This document shows, one piece after another, positions 23,441 through 60,864 of a DNA stretch of 64,000 bases. The stretch lies in the NCBI RefSeq assembly GCF_900604965.1, contig NZ_UWPD01000001.1, forward strand, positions 1,403,311 to 1,467,310. Direction: 5' to 3'. Under the pieces are notes generated by a model, which ran no database searches, was not told the origin of the DNA, and was given only the letters and a program-made list of their open reading frames with translations. How positions within the stretch are numbered: the stretch's first letter is position 1; each line of letters opens with the position of its first letter. This DNA comes from Gordonibacter sp. Marseille-P4307. Lineage in GTDB: Bacteria; Actinomycetota; Coriobacteriia; Coriobacteriales; Eggerthellaceae. A program made the position numbers and the translations under genes.

Positions 23441-23807
23441 TGAGGCTTCGCCAGTTTGTGTGGGTAGTTTTAGGTAGATTCCCAGATGACGCGGGGAATC
23501 TCGGCTAAGGTCTTTTCGCCGAAAAAAAAACCGCCGAGAGAAAGGCCCCGTCTACGACGTGCCGCCGCAGGCGCGCAGGTGGCGCGCGCTCGACTTCGGC
23601 GCCACGGAGGTCTTCCTTGAGTACAAGCTGCCCCGCGTCGAGGCCGTCAACAACAAGATCAAGCTCACGGTGCGCATGGGCTACGGCTTCCGCAACATCG
23701 ACAACCTCATCGAGCTCGTCATGCTGCGCTGCTCGAATCTGCCGATAAAGCTGCCTGAAAGGGCTTAGGCCACTTGAAATCTACCCACACAAACTGGCGA
23801 AGCCTCA
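23441..23807 (+). mobile_element. internally deleted ISL3-family element
   Basis: Perfect 27-base inverted ends (TGAGGCTTCGCCAGTTTGTG plus TGGGTAG at 23441-23467, complement at 23781-23807) bound 367 bases. Inside, the plus strand from about 23545 to 23768 encodes a transposase C-terminus: VPPQARRWRALDFGATEVFL, then EAVNNKIKLTVRMGYGFRNI and DNLIELVMLRCS, the ISL3-family tail. The N-terminal and DDE parts are gone, so it cannot move by itself but keeps both ends and could be mobilised in trans. No target duplication is visible. Confidence 0.8.
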
Positions 23808-50974: not shown

Positions 50975-51649
50975 CTAGCGAACGAAGCGCACGACCTCGT
51001 CAAGCGGACGGCGGCGCTGCTGTGGTTCGAAATGGCTTGCATCATGCCGCCCGAACTGCACGATGAGCGTCGGCGCGTACTCGCTTGGGTCCATAAGACC
51101 GCGACGTGCCAGCAGATCGGCAAGGGCGGCTACGTCGAAGCCCTCCACAGGCGTGGAATCGATACCCAGAAGCGCCGCGCTGGTCAGCAGGTTTCCCAGC
51201 ACGATATAGGCTTGGCGAGACGTCCATTCCAGCAGCTTTCCTTCGTCGCCCTCCATGGAAAGGTCGTTGCGCTGAAAGGCGGCAAGGAAACTGCGACGCT
51301 GATCGAAAGCCTCTCCTTCTGCACCCTGGACGTCGCGCAGGGTGCGTTCGACGAATTCGGAATCGGCCGACGCCCCTTTGCGCGACAGGATCACCATCGT
51401 CCTATCGGCGTTTTTCTTCGCACCCCACGCAAGGTCGAGAAGTTCGCTTTTAACCGTCTCGTCCTCGATAACGAGGAACTTCCACGGTTCGAGCCCAAAC
51501 GAGCTGGGAGAGCGACGTGCAACCTCCAACAATGTTGCGAAATCCTCGTCGGAGACGCGCCCGTTGGGGTCGTAGCGCTTGCAGGTGTAACGTGTGGCAT
51601 ACGTTTGGAATACAAGATCCCGAAGCTCTTCGTGGGTTAACTCGGCCAT
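50975..51649 (-). CDS. NAD(P)H-dependent nitroreductase family protein
   Basis: 224 residues from ATG 51649 (AAAGGTG upstream). FMN-contact motifs of the NfsB/YdgI-type nitroreductases are visible: YATRYTCKRYDPNGRVSDED, RRSPSSFGLEPWKFLVIED, then AYIVLGNLLTSAALLGIDST and the C-terminal APTLIVQFGRHD. Such enzymes reduce nitroaromatics, quinones or related electrophiles with FMN. It is convergent with the FtsX gene (ten bases apart). A perfect terminator separates it from the surface gene upstream, so it must have its own promoter within 51650-51750. Confidence 0.85.
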   Translation of the reverse strand: MAELTHEELRDLVFQTYATRYTCKRYDPNGRVSDEDFATLLEVARRSPSSFGLEPWKFLVIEDETVKSELLDLAWGAKKNADRTMVILSRKGASADSEFVERTLRDVQGAEGEAFDQRRSFLAAFQRNDLSMEGDEGKLLEWTSRQAYIVLGNLLTSAALLGIDSTPVEGFDVAALADLLARRGLMDPSEYAPTLIVQFGRHDASHFEPQQRRRPLDEVVRFVR

Positions 51650-51754
51650 AGGACAACACCTTTCTGTATTGGGGGCGCAAACGGAGTTTTCCTCCGTTCC
51701 TGCGCCGTGCCCCGAACTTAGTCGTTTTCCGAGGGCGAGGCAAGCGCATTCAAA

Positions 51755-51787
51755 AAAATCCCCGTCTCGAAACGAGACGGGGATTTT
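51755..51787. terminator. bidirectional intrinsic terminator
   Basis: A perfect stem AATCCCCGTCTCG-AAA-CGAGACGGGGATT flanked by an A run and TTTT. On the minus strand it ends the beta-helix surface gene (stop at 51815). Confidence 0.85.
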
Positions 51788-51814
51788 CACGTTGCAAAAC
51801 CGCGCCGAAGCTCT

Positions 51815-53914
51815 TTAGGCGGATTCGCGCAGGCGAAACGCGAGTGCGGCGCCCGAGATGGACAGCACAGCCAGTATCGCCATTACGGCAACGGAGCAAT
51901 CATCCCCCGTAACGGGCATCGCAGTCTTAATGGGCATCGAAGGCATCACATGGATCGCCGCGTTTTCGGACTGGGAGGGAGCCGGAGCGGGTTTATCGGG
52001 CTCCACCTTCTGGAACTGGGCATACAGCTTCAAATCGGAGACGATATCTTTCACCTCGGCACCGGGTTCGTACGAAGTGCCGTTTCCATCGGGACTGGTG
52101 TTCCAGCCCGTCAGCTTCAGGTTCTCGGGCACCTTGCCCTTGATTGCCTCGGCATCCCACAACGTTGCGCTCTGCCCGGGCTTAAGGTAGCTTCCCTCCA
52201 TCATCGAGTTCTTGTCGTCATCGAGGTTCAGGTTGTACCCGACGGTCAAAAGCTGCCGCAGATAACGGAACGCTACTCCCGGCTTCGCGGAAGACTCCAA
52301 GGTATCGGAAGAGCTGCTCATGAAATACTCTTCCTGACCGGCTTTCGGGTGGGAATACCGAGGGAAGGTGACGAGGGAATCGTCGTTGAAAATGGCGCCG
52401 CCTTCGGCAACGTAGTAACGTCCCGTACCCTGGGAGGGGTGGCTAGCCGTCAAGCCCGGCTCGATCGCAAGCGGCAAAACGAGTTCGATGCAGTTGCTCC
52501 CTTCGGAATAAAACACACCGGATTCGATGCTGTCGAGGTTTCCCTTTTTCGAAGTGGAGCTGCAGGATACAGCGGCCGTTTTTCCCACAAACACGCCATC
52601 GGCGATCTTGTCGATGCTGCCCGAATTGTAAAGACCGCGCTTGGCACCCTCGAACGTACCGCCGGTTATATCGCCCATCTTGCCAATCCACGCAGGAAGA
52701 CTGGATTCATCGTTCTCGTTATACAAACCGTCGCTAGAAACGCCCTTGAATGTTCCGGACTTGATGTGGTTGATGGTTCCCAAATTGTATATACCGCACG
52801 ACGCTCCCTCGACCGAAGCATTCGAGATGCTTCCGATTTCGGCGTTTCCGCAATTGCGGATACCGGTGTCGGTAATGCCCTTGAACGAGCCGCCGGTAAT
52901 TTCGTTAACCTTCGCGACTCCCGAAGCGCCCACTAACAGCATGGCGTTGTAACCGGAAAACGTGCCGCCCGTTATCTTTTCCACCACCACGGGATCCGAG
53001 CTGTTGCGTGCGTACAAAACAAGTCCCGAAAAGTACGGAGCGCCGTTCGAACTCGCAGACACCTCCTTGGGTTCTGAATTCCCTTCGAACATACCTCCGG
53101 ATATAAGCCCGACCGAGGCCCCGGATTCCATCTGAAGCCCTCCGAAGCGGGCCGCTTTGAACTGACCGCCCGAAACCTCGTCTATGCGGGCGTTGTACTC
53201 CAGCAAGAAAGCCGGTTGGGATTGGCGCGACTCAACGTTGTTCGCGAACGTGCCACCTCGCACCTGTTTGACGACGGTCCCCTTGCCACCAACAGAAAAC
53301 CCGCCGTACAAAGCGCGGTACTGCCCGCCCGATATCTCGTCTACCGAAGCGCCCATGGTAACCTTGACGGCCCAATCGGGGGCACCGCTTATGACATCGG
53401 GGCAATCGATAGTCCCTCCGTAAAACGACGCCTTGGACTGGTTGCCCGCCACCTCCACCATTGCGGATATCGAGCTGTTCTCGAAAAAGATATGCGCTCC
53501 GTCCTTGAACGCGAACGACCCCTGAGTGACCTTGACGCCGACGTTTTTGATGTCGAGGGTATGGCTCGAATCCCCCGAACCCAAGGTAAGAGAGCCTCCA
53601 TCCGTCACGTTAAGATAAGCGTGCTTCGGATGAAGGTTCTTCAGGGTTCCTCCCCCTTGCGCAGCCACCAGCGTCACGCTTTTTCTGAACGAAGCATCCG
53701 AAGCGCAACCCACTTCTCCGTTGACAACCAAGGTGTCCCCATCCTGTGCGGCATCCGCAGCGGCACCAAGGGTGGGATAGGCAACCCCCGTTCTCTGGAT
53801 GGATACCGTTCCCTGCTGGGCATCGCCCGCCGTGCCCGGATCCGCCATCGCATTTGGAAGCCCGATGCCGAGCGCCAGCACGACGCCCATGAAAGCGGCC
53901 AGCTTTCCCTTCAT
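51815..53914 (-). CDS. sortase-anchored beta-helix surface protein, probably phase-variable
   Basis: 699 residues. Signal peptide (cleavage near NAMAD), then residues 45-470 with a repeated strand-turn unit ending in SGGxF or TGGxF (DEISGGQYRALYGGFSVGGK, GLISGGMFEGN, EKITGGTFSGYN, NEITGGSFKG), the sign of a right-handed parallel beta-helix of pectin-lyase type. A Flg_new repeat near 600 (LTGWNTSPDGNGTSYEPGAE) precedes MPVTGDD, a hydrophobic helix and FRLRESA, a variant sorting signal. The start is ATG 53914 after AAAAAAGGGGTG. Its promoter about 100 bases upstream has a run of ten G between -35 and -10. The ligand is unknown. Confidence 0.85.
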   Translation of the reverse strand: MKGKLAAFMGVVLALGIGLPNAMADPGTAGDAQQGTVSIQRTGVAYPTLGAAADAAQDGDTLVVNGEVGCASDASFRKSVTLVAAQGGGTLKNLHPKHAYLNVTDGGSLTLGSGDSSHTLDIKNVGVKVTQGSFAFKDGAHIFFENSSISAMVEVAGNQSKASFYGGTIDCPDVISGAPDWAVKVTMGASVDEISGGQYRALYGGFSVGGKGTVVKQVRGGTFANNVESRQSQPAFLLEYNARIDEVSGGQFKAARFGGLQMESGASVGLISGGMFEGNSEPKEVSASSNGAPYFSGLVLYARNSSDPVVVEKITGGTFSGYNAMLLVGASGVAKVNEITGGSFKGITDTGIRNCGNAEIGSISNASVEGASCGIYNLGTINHIKSGTFKGVSSDGLYNENDESSLPAWIGKMGDITGGTFEGAKRGLYNSGSIDKIADGVFVGKTAAVSCSSTSKKGNLDSIESGVFYSEGSNCIELVLPLAIEPGLTASHPSQGTGRYYVAEGGAIFNDDSLVTFPRYSHPKAGQEEYFMSSSSDTLESSAKPGVAFRYLRQLLTVGYNLNLDDDKNSMMEGSYLKPGQSATLWDAEAIKGKVPENLKLTGWNTSPDGNGTSYEPGAEVKDIVSDLKLYAQFQKVEPDKPAPAPSQSENAAIHVMPSMPIKTAMPVTGDDCSVAVMAILAVLSISGAALAFRLRESA

Positions 53915-54012
53915 AACACCCCTTTTTTCCGACTGTTACCCGGGTTGCGCTCGGTAGGTTGAATCCGTAGTTCATACCAACTTCACCTGGTAAAATTGAT
54001 ATTCGCGCATTG

Positions 54013-54040
54013 ATTATACCCCCCCCCCGAAAAAGATCAA
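54013..54040 (-). promoter_or_regulatory. promoter with a G10 tract in the spacer
   Basis: On the minus strand: TTGATC (54035-54040), a 16-base spacer TTTTTC plus ten G (54019-54028), then TATAAT (54013-54018), leaving a leader of about 90 bases to the ATG at 53914. A homopolymer exactly between the two boxes changes length by slippage and alters spacing, the known mechanism in Bordetella fim and Neisseria porA/opc promoters. Confidence 0.75.
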
Positions 54041-54235
54041 GGAGTTTTCAAGGAGCCGTGGGCTACCGAAGCCAGCACAGGCCGCATCGCTGGAAAGACC
54101 GGGGATTCTTTACCGTTCCTTGACGAACTCATGACGTCGCTTTTACCCGCGCTTTGCGCTTCCTTTTCATGCAGGCGGTTCAATTCTTCGCAGGGCGAAA
54201 ACAGCCAAAAAGGGAACCGAGCGGAAAGGAATCGA

Positions 54236-55072
54236 ATGAAACGAGTAGGAATAGCGAAGACGCTGATCGGCCTTGCGGCCGCATCCGCATTGGCGTTCGG
54301 TCTGGCAAGCTGCGGCACGTCGGATTCGGCTTCGGGGGTGTCCGGAACCGTCTCGACCAATGGATCCACCTCGATGGAGAAGGTGATCGGCTCTTTATCG
54401 GAAGCCTTCATGGCCGATAACCCCTCCGTGAAGATCACCTACGATGCAACCGGATCGGGTACGGGCATCGAATCCGTCTCGCAGGGAAGTTGTGACATCG
54501 GCCTGTCTTCGCGCGCGCTTAAAGACAAGGAGACGGGGCTTCGGCCCATCACGATCGCGCTCGACGGAATCGCCATCGTGGTGAACCAAAGCTGCGGCGT
54601 GAGAAGCCTCACCCTTCAGCAGGTAACCGACATATTCACCGGAAAGATCCGGAATTGGTCGGAAGTAGGTGGTAAAGATCTCGAGATAGCCTGCATCGGA
54701 CGCGAGAGCGGATCGGGAACGCGCGATGGGTTCGAGTCCGTCACCAAAACCTCCGATCAGTGCGTTTTGACCCAAGAGCTCACCTCTACCGGCGCGGTGA
54801 TGACCGCGGTTGCCAGCTCCCCCAACGCGATCGGATACGCCTCGCTCTCGTCGGTCGAAGGCCAGAAGGGCATCTATTCCCTGGACGTGGATGGCGTAGC
54901 CTGCAGCGAGAAGACCGTCCTCGACGGCACCTATCCCATCCAGCGGCCCTTGAACCTCATCGTACCCGAAGACTCGAAGCTCTCCGACGAGGCCCAGGCC
55001 TTCGTGGACTTCGCCATCAGCCCCGCAGCTGCCGACCTCATCAGAACAGCGGGAGCCGTCCCCCTTGCATAG
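54236..55072 (+). CDS. pstS: phosphate-binding lipoprotein PstS
   Basis: 278 residues; ATG 54236 with GAAAGGAATC upstream. Lipobox LASC (Cys26). The phosphate-binding loops are present: TNGSTSMEKVIGSLSEAFMA, then ATGSGTGIESVSQGSCDIGL, SSRALKDKE and IGRESGSGTRDGFESV. This is the PstS class of about 280 residues. It heads pstSCAB on the same strand. PhoU and a PhoR/PhoB pair are not in the window. The region 53975-54235 upstream is shared with the divergent phase-variable promoter. Confidence 0.93.
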   Translation: MKRVGIAKTLIGLAAASALAFGLASCGTSDSASGVSGTVSTNGSTSMEKVIGSLSEAFMADNPSVKITYDATGSGTGIESVSQGSCDIGLSSRALKDKETGLRPITIALDGIAIVVNQSCGVRSLTLQQVTDIFTGKIRNWSEVGGKDLEIACIGRESGSGTRDGFESVTKTSDQCVLTQELTSTGAVMTAVASSPNAIGYASLSSVEGQKGIYSLDVDGVACSEKTVLDGTYPIQRPLNLIVPEDSKLSDEAQAFVDFAISPAAADLIRTAGAVPLA

Positions 55073-57639: not shown

Positions 57640-59400
57640 CTAACGTGCGGACCCCGCGGCGGGATCCGGATTTTCGGCAGGCGCCGAGGGAGAGCCCTCT
57701 ACAGCCTTGCCGGAATCGGAGGCTTCGGGTACCTCGGGTGCCGCAGGGTTCCCGACGCGGTCGGCCGCCTCGGGAACCGATGCCTCCTTCTCGATGATCT
57801 GATCGTCGGTCATGCCGGCAGAGCCGCCCGCGTTAGCGGAGTCCTCCACCTTCACGCCCGGATAGCGACTGCTGGGATCTTTGAAGACGATCTCGGTTTT
57901 TCCGTTGCTGTAGTACAGAACCCAGCACTTGGCCTCTTTCACGATGCGCACGACGGTCTTGACCTCGTCATCGGCTCGGTCATCGCCCGAGTTTCCGTGT
58001 TCCCCCTGATTCCCGTTGTCCGATCCGCTCGCGTTTCCCACTTCGGCATCGCTGCCCCATCCGTTCTTGCCCTTGGGCCGGGACTCGGGATGCAGCACGA
58101 GGTACTTCAGCGTGGCCACCACCTGACGGGCCGTATAGCCGTGGAAGTAACCGGGATCCTCGGAAAGCCAGATGATGGTGTCGATCGAAACGTAATGGTA
58201 ATGGTCGTGATGGGGGATGATGAAGCGCTGGCGCTCGTGGTCGAACCCGGTGGTGTGGGTGACGTTTCCGTAGGTGATGTACTCAAGCGGGACGATCAGC
58301 TTTGCCTCCACCTCGTCATAGGTGAAGCGCTCGTCCTCTTTGATCGAGCCGGAGCCCCTGTTCTCATCGTACTCGACGATCTTGATATCGGGGTACAGCT
58401 CGCTCGGATCGGTATGCGTTACCTCTTCGGTGCCATCCGCGCGGTGGATGTGCCAATGGTCATCGTGATGCTCGATCTTCACCACGCGCTTGGGATCGTT
58501 GGGATCCTGCTTGATAGGCTTTACCGGCTTGGCCGGTTTGGTTCCGGCGTTGCCGCCCGCATGATTGCCCTTGTACTCCCCTATCTTGATGTGCGGAAAT
58601 GCCGAGGAGGGGTTGTCGTACGTGATGAATTCGCGGTTGTCTGCGGTGTAGGCATGGTAGTGGTCGCCGTGCTTCAGGATCTTCACGATGGGCTGCTTTG
58701 CCAAATCGGCAAGGGAAACCACCTGGACGAAGGGAAGCTGGGGGCCGCCCGGCACGGGCGCCGGCTCCACATGCGGGATTCCGGGAACCGCGCTTGATCC
58801 CCCGCTGCCTGCACTGCCGCCCGGGCCGTAACCCGCTCGGTGCCACGAGCCGCCCGACGCGCCTCCGTGGCCGCCGTGACTGCCGGTATACGTGCCGATC
58901 GAGATGCCGGGGTACAGCGCGCTGGGATCTTCGTACGTGATGAACTCGCGCCCGTCCGCGGTGTAGATGTGGTAGTGGTCGCCGTGCTTCAGGATGCGCA
59001 CGACCCCGTTGCTGGCGATGGACTTCAGCTGGCTGACGGATACGACGTTTGCGGTCGATCCCAGGTTAGCGGCACTGCCCGCCTTGCTGGGATCGGTGTA
59101 GGTGATGATCTCCCGGCCGTCTTTGGTGAACACGTGCCAATGATCTCCGTGCTTGACGATCTTGACGATTTCGTCAGAAGACACCTCAGCATCGAGCAGA
59201 ACCTCGGTGGTCTCGTCCGTCTTGTACGTCGGGGCAGAATGCGCACCGGGCGCCTCGTCCCCGGCTGAGGCCGCCAGCACCTGCTGGGCGCTGCGGGATG
59301 CCTCGTCGCCCGTAAGCGCGCCGGTAGCCGCGAGAGCGCCCGTGGTCACCGAGACCGTCAGAATTGCAACGGCTCCGAGGGCCGCCTTCGTTCTCTTCAT
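57640..59400 (-). CDS. histidine-triad (Pht-like) exported zinc-binding protein
   Basis: 586 residues from ATG 59400 (AAGGAG upstream). A signal peptide is followed by repeated HxxHxH triads: HGDHWHVFTKDGREIITY, HGDHYHIYTADGREFITY, HGDHYHAYTADNREFITY, HDDHWHIHRADGTEEV and HHDHYHYVSID. Glycine-rich spacers lie between them and an acidic, Ser/Pro-rich C-terminus without a sorting motif ends it. Streptococcal Pht proteins use such triads to bind zinc and hand it to AdcAII. Here the gene follows the zinc permease by 11 bases in the same operon, so it should scavenge zinc for that importer. The triads occur as part of near-identical 20-residue units. Confidence 0.85.
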   Translation of the reverse strand: MKRTKAALGAVAILTVSVTTGALAATGALTGDEASRSAQQVLAASAGDEAPGAHSAPTYKTDETTEVLLDAEVSSDEIVKIVKHGDHWHVFTKDGREIITYTDPSKAGSAANLGSTANVVSVSQLKSIASNGVVRILKHGDHYHIYTADGREFITYEDPSALYPGISIGTYTGSHGGHGGASGGSWHRAGYGPGGSAGSGGSSAVPGIPHVEPAPVPGGPQLPFVQVVSLADLAKQPIVKILKHGDHYHAYTADNREFITYDNPSSAFPHIKIGEYKGNHAGGNAGTKPAKPVKPIKQDPNDPKRVVKIEHHDDHWHIHRADGTEEVTHTDPSELYPDIKIVEYDENRGSGSIKEDERFTYDEVEAKLIVPLEYITYGNVTHTTGFDHERQRFIIPHHDHYHYVSIDTIIWLSEDPGYFHGYTARQVVATLKYLVLHPESRPKGKNGWGSDAEVGNASGSDNGNQGEHGNSGDDRADDEVKTVVRIVKEAKCWVLYYSNGKTEIVFKDPSSRYPGVKVEDSANAGGSAGMTDDQIIEKEASVPEAADRVGNPAAPEVPEASDSGKAVEGSPSAPAENPDPAAGSAR

Positions 59401-59410
59401 AGAAAGCTCC

Positions 59411-60202
59411 TTACTTTCGTTTTGCGAACAAAGCCACAAGAAGACTGATTACCGATATGAGGACGATCACAGAGCCGGGTCGAAGATTTCCGTAATACGA
59501 GACGATGAGCCCCGCGTACACGAATGCGACCGACAATGCGACCGACAGGGCCAACGTGCCCCGATAGGTACGGGCGAACTGCATCGCGCAGATCGCCGGG
59601 ATAACGAGAATGGACGAAACGATGAGCGAGCCGATGGTTTTGGCCGCAATCGACACCGAAAGGGCAACGATCAGCGCGAACGCGAAGTTTAAAGCGCGCT
59701 GATCGATACCGAGAAGGCGCGCGGAGCCCGCATCGAACACGCTGAGGTACAGCCTGCGGTACAGCACCCGGTAAACAGCCAGCACAACCGCCGCCACAAC
59801 CAAAACCAGGCAGAACTCCAGGTCGCTGATGGTAACGATGGAGCCGAATAGGTAGCCGGCGATGGCGTTTCCCCCTCCGGCGAAGCTGCTGAAGATACCG
59901 GCAAGCCCGATAGAGGCCGCCAGCACGACGACCGTCGATATCTCCTGATACGACCGCAGCCGAGACCTGACGGCTTCCACGCACAGAGCCGCCGCAACGC
60001 ACGCAGCCACCGAGCCGAGAAGCGGGTTGAATCCAAAGCACAAACCCGCCGCCACGCCCGCAAGCGACGAATGCGACAGCGTGTCGCCCATCATCGAAAG
60101 GCGCTTGAGCACGATGGGAAGCCCGATGAGCGGCAAGACCACCGCCAGCACGGTTCCGACGACGAAGGCGCGCTGCATGAAGTCGTAATCGAAGGGGTTC
60201 AT
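59411..60202 (-). CDS. zinc ABC transporter permease (second system)
   Basis: 263 residues from ATG 60202, overlapping the ATPase stop by four bases. About eight to nine membrane helices with ZnuB/AdcB landmarks FVVGTVLAVVLPLIGLPIVL, MMGDTLSHSSLAGVAAGLCF and KTIGSLIVSSILVIPAICAM. It forms the channel of the second zinc system, between the ATPase and the histidine-triad gene. Confidence 0.9.
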   Translation of the reverse strand: MNPFDYDFMQRAFVVGTVLAVVLPLIGLPIVLKRLSMMGDTLSHSSLAGVAAGLCFGFNPLLGSVAACVAAALCVEAVRSRLRSYQEISTVVVLAASIGLAGIFSSFAGGGNAIAGYLFGSIVTISDLEFCLVLVVAAVVLAVYRVLYRRLYLSVFDAGSARLLGIDQRALNFAFALIVALSVSIAAKTIGSLIVSSILVIPAICAMQFARTYRGTLALSVALSVAFVYAGLIVSYYGNLRPGSVIVLISVISLLVALFAKRK

Positions 60203-60864
60203 AGATCCGCTCCCACCTTCGAAAGATCCAGCTCGCTTGCGCGTCCATCCGACAGATGCAGCGCGCGATCGATGAACGGGACGGCTTCGGACAGATGGTG
60301 CGTGATCATCACCACGGTCCGCCCTTCGTCGCACAGCCTGCGCAGGATGCCGTACAGTTCGGCTGAAAACGACCGGTCGATCCCCGTTGTGGGTTCGTCC
60401 AAAAGAATCAGGCGGGCGTTCTTGATCAGCGCAGCAAGGATGCCCACGCGCTGCAGCTGCCCGCCCGACAGCTCCCTCAAAGCGCGCCCGCGCTGGCCCT
60501 CGAGGCCGACGAGCGCCAGCAGATCGCCGATGCTCGCCTTCGACTTCAGATGAGCGCAATGGACAGACACAAGCTCTTCGATGGTGGTCGGAAAGCCACG
60601 GTATCCGCGCACCGCGTCCTGAGAGACGTAGGCGATGTCGGCGTGATGGTCGTCCCGTTCGATGGAATCGCCGAACAACCTGATGGTTCCCGCGTTAGGG
60701 GTAAGGTTCCCTAAAACCAGGTTCATCAGCGTGGATTTTCCGACTCCGTTGTCTCCGACGATGGCTGCGAACTCCCCTTCGGCGATCGAGAGGGAAACCG
60801 ATTCGAGCATCGGCTCGTCGTCGTAGGAAAACCTCAGGCCGACCGTTTCCAGCGCGCTACTCAC
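60199..60864 (-). CDS. zinc ABC transporter ATPase (second system)
   Basis: 221 residues: Walker A GDNGVGKST (about 36-44), Q loop YVSQDAVRGYRG, signature LSGGQLQRVGILAALI, Walker B LILLDEPTTGID and switch His VMITHHLSEA. The start overlaps the end of the binding-protein gene by eight bases. The Q loop residue is present and the protein seems fully active. It serves the permease that overlaps its stop. Confidence 0.9.
   Translation of the reverse strand: MSSALETVGLRFSYDDEPMLESVSLSIAEGEFAAIVGDNGVGKSTLMNLVLGNLTPNAGTIRLFGDSIERDDHHADIAYVSQDAVRGYRGFPTTIEELVSVHCAHLKSKASIGDLLALVGLEGQRGRALRELSGGQLQRVGILAALIKNARLILLDEPTTGIDRSFSAELYGILRRLCDEGRTVVMITHHLSEAVPFIDRALHLSDGRASELDLSKVGADL

Follow-up and report, generated by a model that had tools for sequence, protein, structure and literature searches.

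The window analysed here, a stretch of 64 kb read at its full length, carries on its minus strand a gene for a putative surface protein. To the left of this gene lies a nitroreductase gene and to its right the divergent pst phosphate operon. The features of the locus are collected in Table 1.

Table 1. Surface gene, predicted promoter elements and accessory segment, in window coordinates
Feature	Position	Strand	Remarks
-35 hexamer TTGATC	54035..54040	minus	4/6 match to TTGACA
G10 tract (C10 on plus)	54019..54028	minus	abuts the -10 hexamer on its 5' side
-10 hexamer TATAAT	54013..54018	minus	6/6 match
Leader, 98 bp from -10 to ATG	53915..54012	minus	purine-rich ribosome-binding site AAAAAAGGGG directly before ATG
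Gene for a secreted surface protein of 699 aa, probably beta-helical, anchored at the C-terminus by a sortase-type MPVTGD motif	51815..53914	minus	sequence, Pfam, structure model, Foldseek
Hairpin and T tail resembling a terminator, on the 3' side of the surface gene	51760..51777	minus	scan; within chance expectation
Segment without counterpart in G003 (gene, promoter and tract)	51666..54107		comparison with G003

The surface gene and its predicted promoter

The product of the gene is predicted to be surface-exposed on the basis of its signal peptide and of its C-terminus, where the MPVTGD anchor is followed by a hydrophobic stretch and by RLRES. A preliminary description of this DNA had called it a beta-helix sortase substrate. 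The signal peptide and the anchor agree with a sortase substrate, but the beta-helix is probable only: a Pfam search of the protein gave no match, the predicted structure is of low confidence (mean pLDDT 43) and has numerous short strands, and Foldseek run with this model returned mostly beta-helix proteins at non-significant scores (best E 0.09).

The surface gene proves to be accessory when compared with the nearest sequenced relative, G003, whose PstS is 87% identical. G003 retains both flanks but has about 590 bp of unrelated sequence between them, and it lacks gene and tract alike. Upstream of pstS, the shared sequence ends at 54108, about 80 bp short of the tract, and hence the tract goes with the surface gene, not with pstS. 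The sole clear homologue of the protein in the same genus, in G002, is partial and 30% identical; it was rejected as a relative with a promoter tract, its G9 (G002:C19:109717, L071) sitting within the coding region. No relatives of the protein were found among 85k named species genomes, the promoter flank of the gene was absent from viral contigs, and a search of a phage collection gave no match. Elsewhere in the window, at 57640-60559, a gene for a streptococcal histidine-triad-like protein (histidine-triad match under the Pfam cut-off) adjoins a metal ABC transporter permease gene and is conserved in G003.

On the minus strand, the promoter reads CTCC-TTGATC-TTTTTC-GGGGGGGGGG-TATAAT-CAATGCGCG. 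TTTTTC and the ten Gs make up a 16-nt spacer between TTGATC and TATAAT, which one more G would bring to 17; these elements lie exactly where the preliminary description had placed them. Transcription of the surface gene is predicted to start near 54005. In a promoter scan of 51600-54300, the TATAAT/TTGATC pair is the sole sigma70-like site, with 10 of 12 matches, one such site being expected there by chance. A homopolymer of at least about 8 bases is located between -35 and -10, as in promoters of the porA/tp0126 type. Since a spacing of 16 is near the optimum of 16-18 nt, changes of a single base should matter.

It had also been stated that no other homopolymer of the window is as long, and this holds: an A9 run comes next, followed by runs of 7. 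The A9 run (23522-23530) is in an apparently intergenic stretch. The G10 tract is also the only G/C run of at least 10 in the 1.81 Mb genome (two contigs); one other G9, at G000:C2:1383673, occurs in a stretch without convincing promoter or gene. About three G/C runs of such length are expected in the genome (simple Markov estimate with the base composition of the window), so that the presence of a G10 is unremarkable and its placement in a promoter is what counts. The number of ten Gs is the assembled value from one strain and might be fixed or miscounted.

Recurrence of the layout in other genomes

A G8 immediately followed by TATAAT occurs in one of 138 genomes of the family, the present one. 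The strict pattern TTGA-N4-12-G7-N0-8-TATAAT, with at least seven Gs, has three matches in 398 genomes of Coriobacteriia vs. one for the reversed pattern. The match in G048 (TTGACA-G17-TAAACTATAAT) precedes a CWB2-domain secreted protein and that in G017 a BspA-type leucine-rich surface protein. With the more general pattern TTGA..G9+..TANNNT, 103 matches were found in 64 of the 398 genomes (16%), against 13 matches for the reversed pattern. Elsewhere in the phylum, matches are present in 11 of 358 genomes, a smaller share than in the class (Fisher p 6e-10). When the tract consists of Cs, there are 35 matches in the class and 14 for the reversed control. There are thus many such promoters in Coriobacteriia, and the site at 54013-54040 is no isolated case.

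Among the class sites that were parsed (n = 93, a few counted twice through overlapping stretches), the -35/-10 spacing is 15-20 in 80 and is most commonly 19, not 17. The first G follows the -35 hexamer at a distance that peaks sharply at 8-9, in this survey as well as in the survey of named genomes described below, which is expected if spacing matters; at sites where the -10 hexamer abuts the tract, the peak is at 9.

Downstream ORFs of at least 80 codons starting at most 300 bp from the site are present for 88 of the 93. Signal-peptide-like N-termini are found in 63 of these 88 with a simple rule and in 45 with a strict one, against 43 and 28 of 122 ORFs of the genus and 26 and 10 of 110 neighbouring ORFs, the rule being a home-made heuristic with a high background (24-35%). 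The Pfam families of the downstream proteins include InlB/Listeria-Bacteroides repeats, S-layer homology domains, choline-binding repeats, BspA leucine-rich repeats, ricin-type lectin domains, beta-helices and LPXTG anchors. One of these proteins (G100, L261), with a beta-helix, InlB-type repeats and LPPTG, has an overall plan like that of the surface protein of the window.

Several other arrangements were observed during the survey. One 46 kb contig, G079:C70 (L249-L254), carries six promoters with G10 or G11 tracts, several of them near-identical, each followed by a large secreted protein; judged from its sequence, it resembles a battery of surface proteins that can be switched. A further candidate for a promoter tract within the genus is a G14 of G003, located between TTGCAT and TAAACG (C1:1030582, L067) and followed by an ORF whose N-terminus is like that of a secreted protein. 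Two further tracts of G003, a G11 (C1:372572, L058) and a G10 (C1:1921651, L073), are found at two long secreted ORFs, within the signal-peptide core or shortly ahead of it. Computed changes of either tract by one or two bases cut the product to about 15-55 codons; on this computation, the two tracts are the equivalent, within coding sequence, of the proposed promoter switch.

Named genomes were scanned with TTGACA-N5-12-G10+-TATNNT. Among the matches listed, most are from gut Bacilli, Clostridia and Saccharibacteria, others being from Streptobacillus and spirochaetes; one species of Coriobacteriia, Enorma phocaeensis, is represented. Secreted-looking genes lie downstream in 55 of 68 cases among the matches listed, vs. 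126 of 429 for the neighbouring genes that served as the comparison set (Fisher p 7e-16). This result suggests a general promoter design of surface genes, repeatedly evolved, of which the site in the window would be one member. We lean toward the broader view that TTGACA-N8/9-G(n)-TATNNT, in which the Gs are on the sense strand and directly adjoin the -10 hexamer, has arisen repeatedly and convergently in gut bacteria (among them Coriobacteriia, Bacilli, Clostridia and Saccharibacteria) as a promoter through which surface and secreted proteins undergo phase variation.

This recurring design is of more interest than the single site in the window. If it is what it seems, stochastic surface variation would be widespread and largely uncatalogued among commensals; in those of the gut, surface switching is mostly discussed as DNA inversions. 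A slippage promoter of Coriobacteriia that recurs in dozens of genera and can be recognised from sequence alone would allow one to predict which surface proteins differ between the cells of one clone. Such predictions would bear on phage susceptibility, immune recognition, and the comparison of strains.

Tract length and the proposed switch

Tract lengths can be compared between related species, as assembled homopolymers. The promoters of G104 and G105 have G10 and G11, respectively, with otherwise two substitutions in about 320 bp, and those of G117 and G118 also differ by one G (G10 vs. G9). In one genus, four species share an orthologous promoter, TTGACG-Cn-GGAAGTTTTATACT or a variant of it, with C18 in G093, C11 in G095, C13 in G094, and C12 in G033. 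These C-run promoters (L293-L296), which show the strongest length polymorphism found, precede a short ORF whose N-terminus is hydrophobic. On these alignments, the tract is the part that changes between close relatives. A C-tract pair of G104 and G105 was left out of the comparison, the search motif having matched elsewhere. The tract promoter L134 of Enorma phocaeensis was considered as a second allele of L111 and rejected: the two are identical over 1430 bp and probably come from one assembly, so that the pair is uninformative.

MutS1 was not detected in any of 21 genomes (the present one and 20 relatives), with a positive result in 11 of 14 genomes of the control set. The main mismatch-repair brake on slippage therefore seems to be missing, although this is compatible with other repair. 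Loss of mutS increases slippage in the opc tract (PMC3447861).

The preliminary description had proposed that the promoter is phase-variable. This proposal is supported by a recurrence of the layout above that of the reversed control, by the association with secreted genes, by the tract-length differences between orthologues, and by the undetectable MutS. From these sequence data, we consider with good confidence that 54013-54040 is a phase-variable promoter of the surface gene. RNA polymerase with the housekeeping sigma factor would use TTGATC and TATAAT, with the G10 tract as most of the spacer. Slipped-strand mispairing at replication would add or remove Gs, probably uncorrected given that MutS is undetectable. 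The spacing would be 16 with G10, the assembled state, and 17 with G11, the expected optimum, whereas G9, G12, and G13 (15, 18, and 19, respectively) are expected to be weaker. A changed distance between -35 and -10 would change the binding of the polymerase, and cells within one clone would thereby have a higher or a lower output of the surface protein. We infer that the promoter is used, that its length varies at 54019-54028 and that expression is affected; the benefit could be, for instance, escape from phage or from host antibodies.

A variant that overlaps with this reading, and that we hold to be rather unlikely, keeps phase variation without the spacing effect; the tract would act through a regulator bound upstream or through an effect of the G run on DNA opening. 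There are precedents, since in Bordetella fim the C-stretch separates the activator site from -10 (PMC1891110) and Treponema tprL does not use a spacing mechanism (PMC7864442). The imperfect -35 hexamer and the prevalence of a spacing of 19 rather than 17 in the class point in the same direction. However, a recognisable -35 is located at 16 nt, and the sharpness of the 8-9 distance in both surveys argues for an effect of spacing.

Still less probable is an ordinary promoter, with a G run in its spacer by chance and a length either stable on relevant time scales or of little effect. Such an explanation draws on the three or so runs of this length expected per genome, on the many sequences that spacers accept, on the one promoter-like site expected by chance in the scanned interval, and on the fact that the tract is known from one strain of the species. 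Against it speak the roughly eightfold excess of class matches over the reversed-pattern control, the enrichment of secreted proteins among downstream genes and the different tract lengths of relatives. Finally, that the tract is outside the surface-gene promoter and has another role, such as divergent control of pstS or as the remnant of a gene-bearing insertion, would fit an intergenic stretch between divergent genes and a surface gene that is accessory relative to G003, but is very improbable given where the shared pstS upstream sequence ends and a TATAAT that directly follows the tract and is oriented toward the surface gene.

Relation to known phase-variable promoters

The preferred reading, a promoter switched by the length of its spacer, can be set beside several described systems. 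The preliminary description had likened the layout to those of Bordetella fim and of Neisseria porA and opc. The likeness to porA, with its tract in the spacer, stands. In contrast, the C run of opc encompasses the -35 hexamer (PMC7864442), and the C-tract of fim is between the activator-binding region and -10 (PMC1891110). Both share with the site in the window a promoter tract, a surface structure, and phase variation, the last as proposed for the window, but the position of the tract, and hence the layout, is different. Promoters of the fim type have an activator box upstream in place of a -35; at the site in the window, a 4/6 -35 hexamer is present.

In Coriobacteriia, prophage recombinases and diversity-generating retroelements (PMC8778435) as well as large capsule inversions (PMC13174815) have been described. 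No published case of homopolymer phase variation in this class was found in the open-access literature searched, in agreement with what had been stated before. Within Actinomycetota, HPT_37 of Cutibacterium acnes is a C-run of 5 or 7 between -10 and -35, with expression that differs by strain (PMC4746626); this tract is also in the spacer, but the run is shorter and its variation is slow and between clades rather than a demonstrated switching. In Gardnerella, variable homopolymer tracts precede genes for surface proteins, LPXTG and InlB-repeat types among them, and one tested tract showed mixtures of 9 and 10 bases among colonies (PMC11287997). The likeness to the site in the window is one of phylum and of a tract upstream of surface genes.

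In porA of Neisseria meningitidis and fetA of N. gonorrhoeae, a homopolymer between -35 and -10 alters the spacing and the transcription of a surface-protein gene (PMC5320596, PMC7864442). The site in the window likewise has a spacer homopolymer and a surface-protein gene. The differences are that gonococcal porA has mixed T/G runs and fetA a C run, and that these systems are Gram-negative and experimentally established. In tp0126 of Treponema pallidum, the -35/-10 spacer contains a poly-G, and transcription peaks at a spacing of 17 nt (PMC7864442). There too, a poly-G spacer precedes a surface-protein gene, and the optimum of 17 nt, measured in tp0126, is predicted here. Length-dependent activity and in vivo variation were measured for tp0126, which belongs to another phylum and encodes an unrelated protein. 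Hence, in a class from which it is unreported as far as we found, the mechanism proposed for the window would be of a known kind, that of Neisseria porA and Treponema tp0126.
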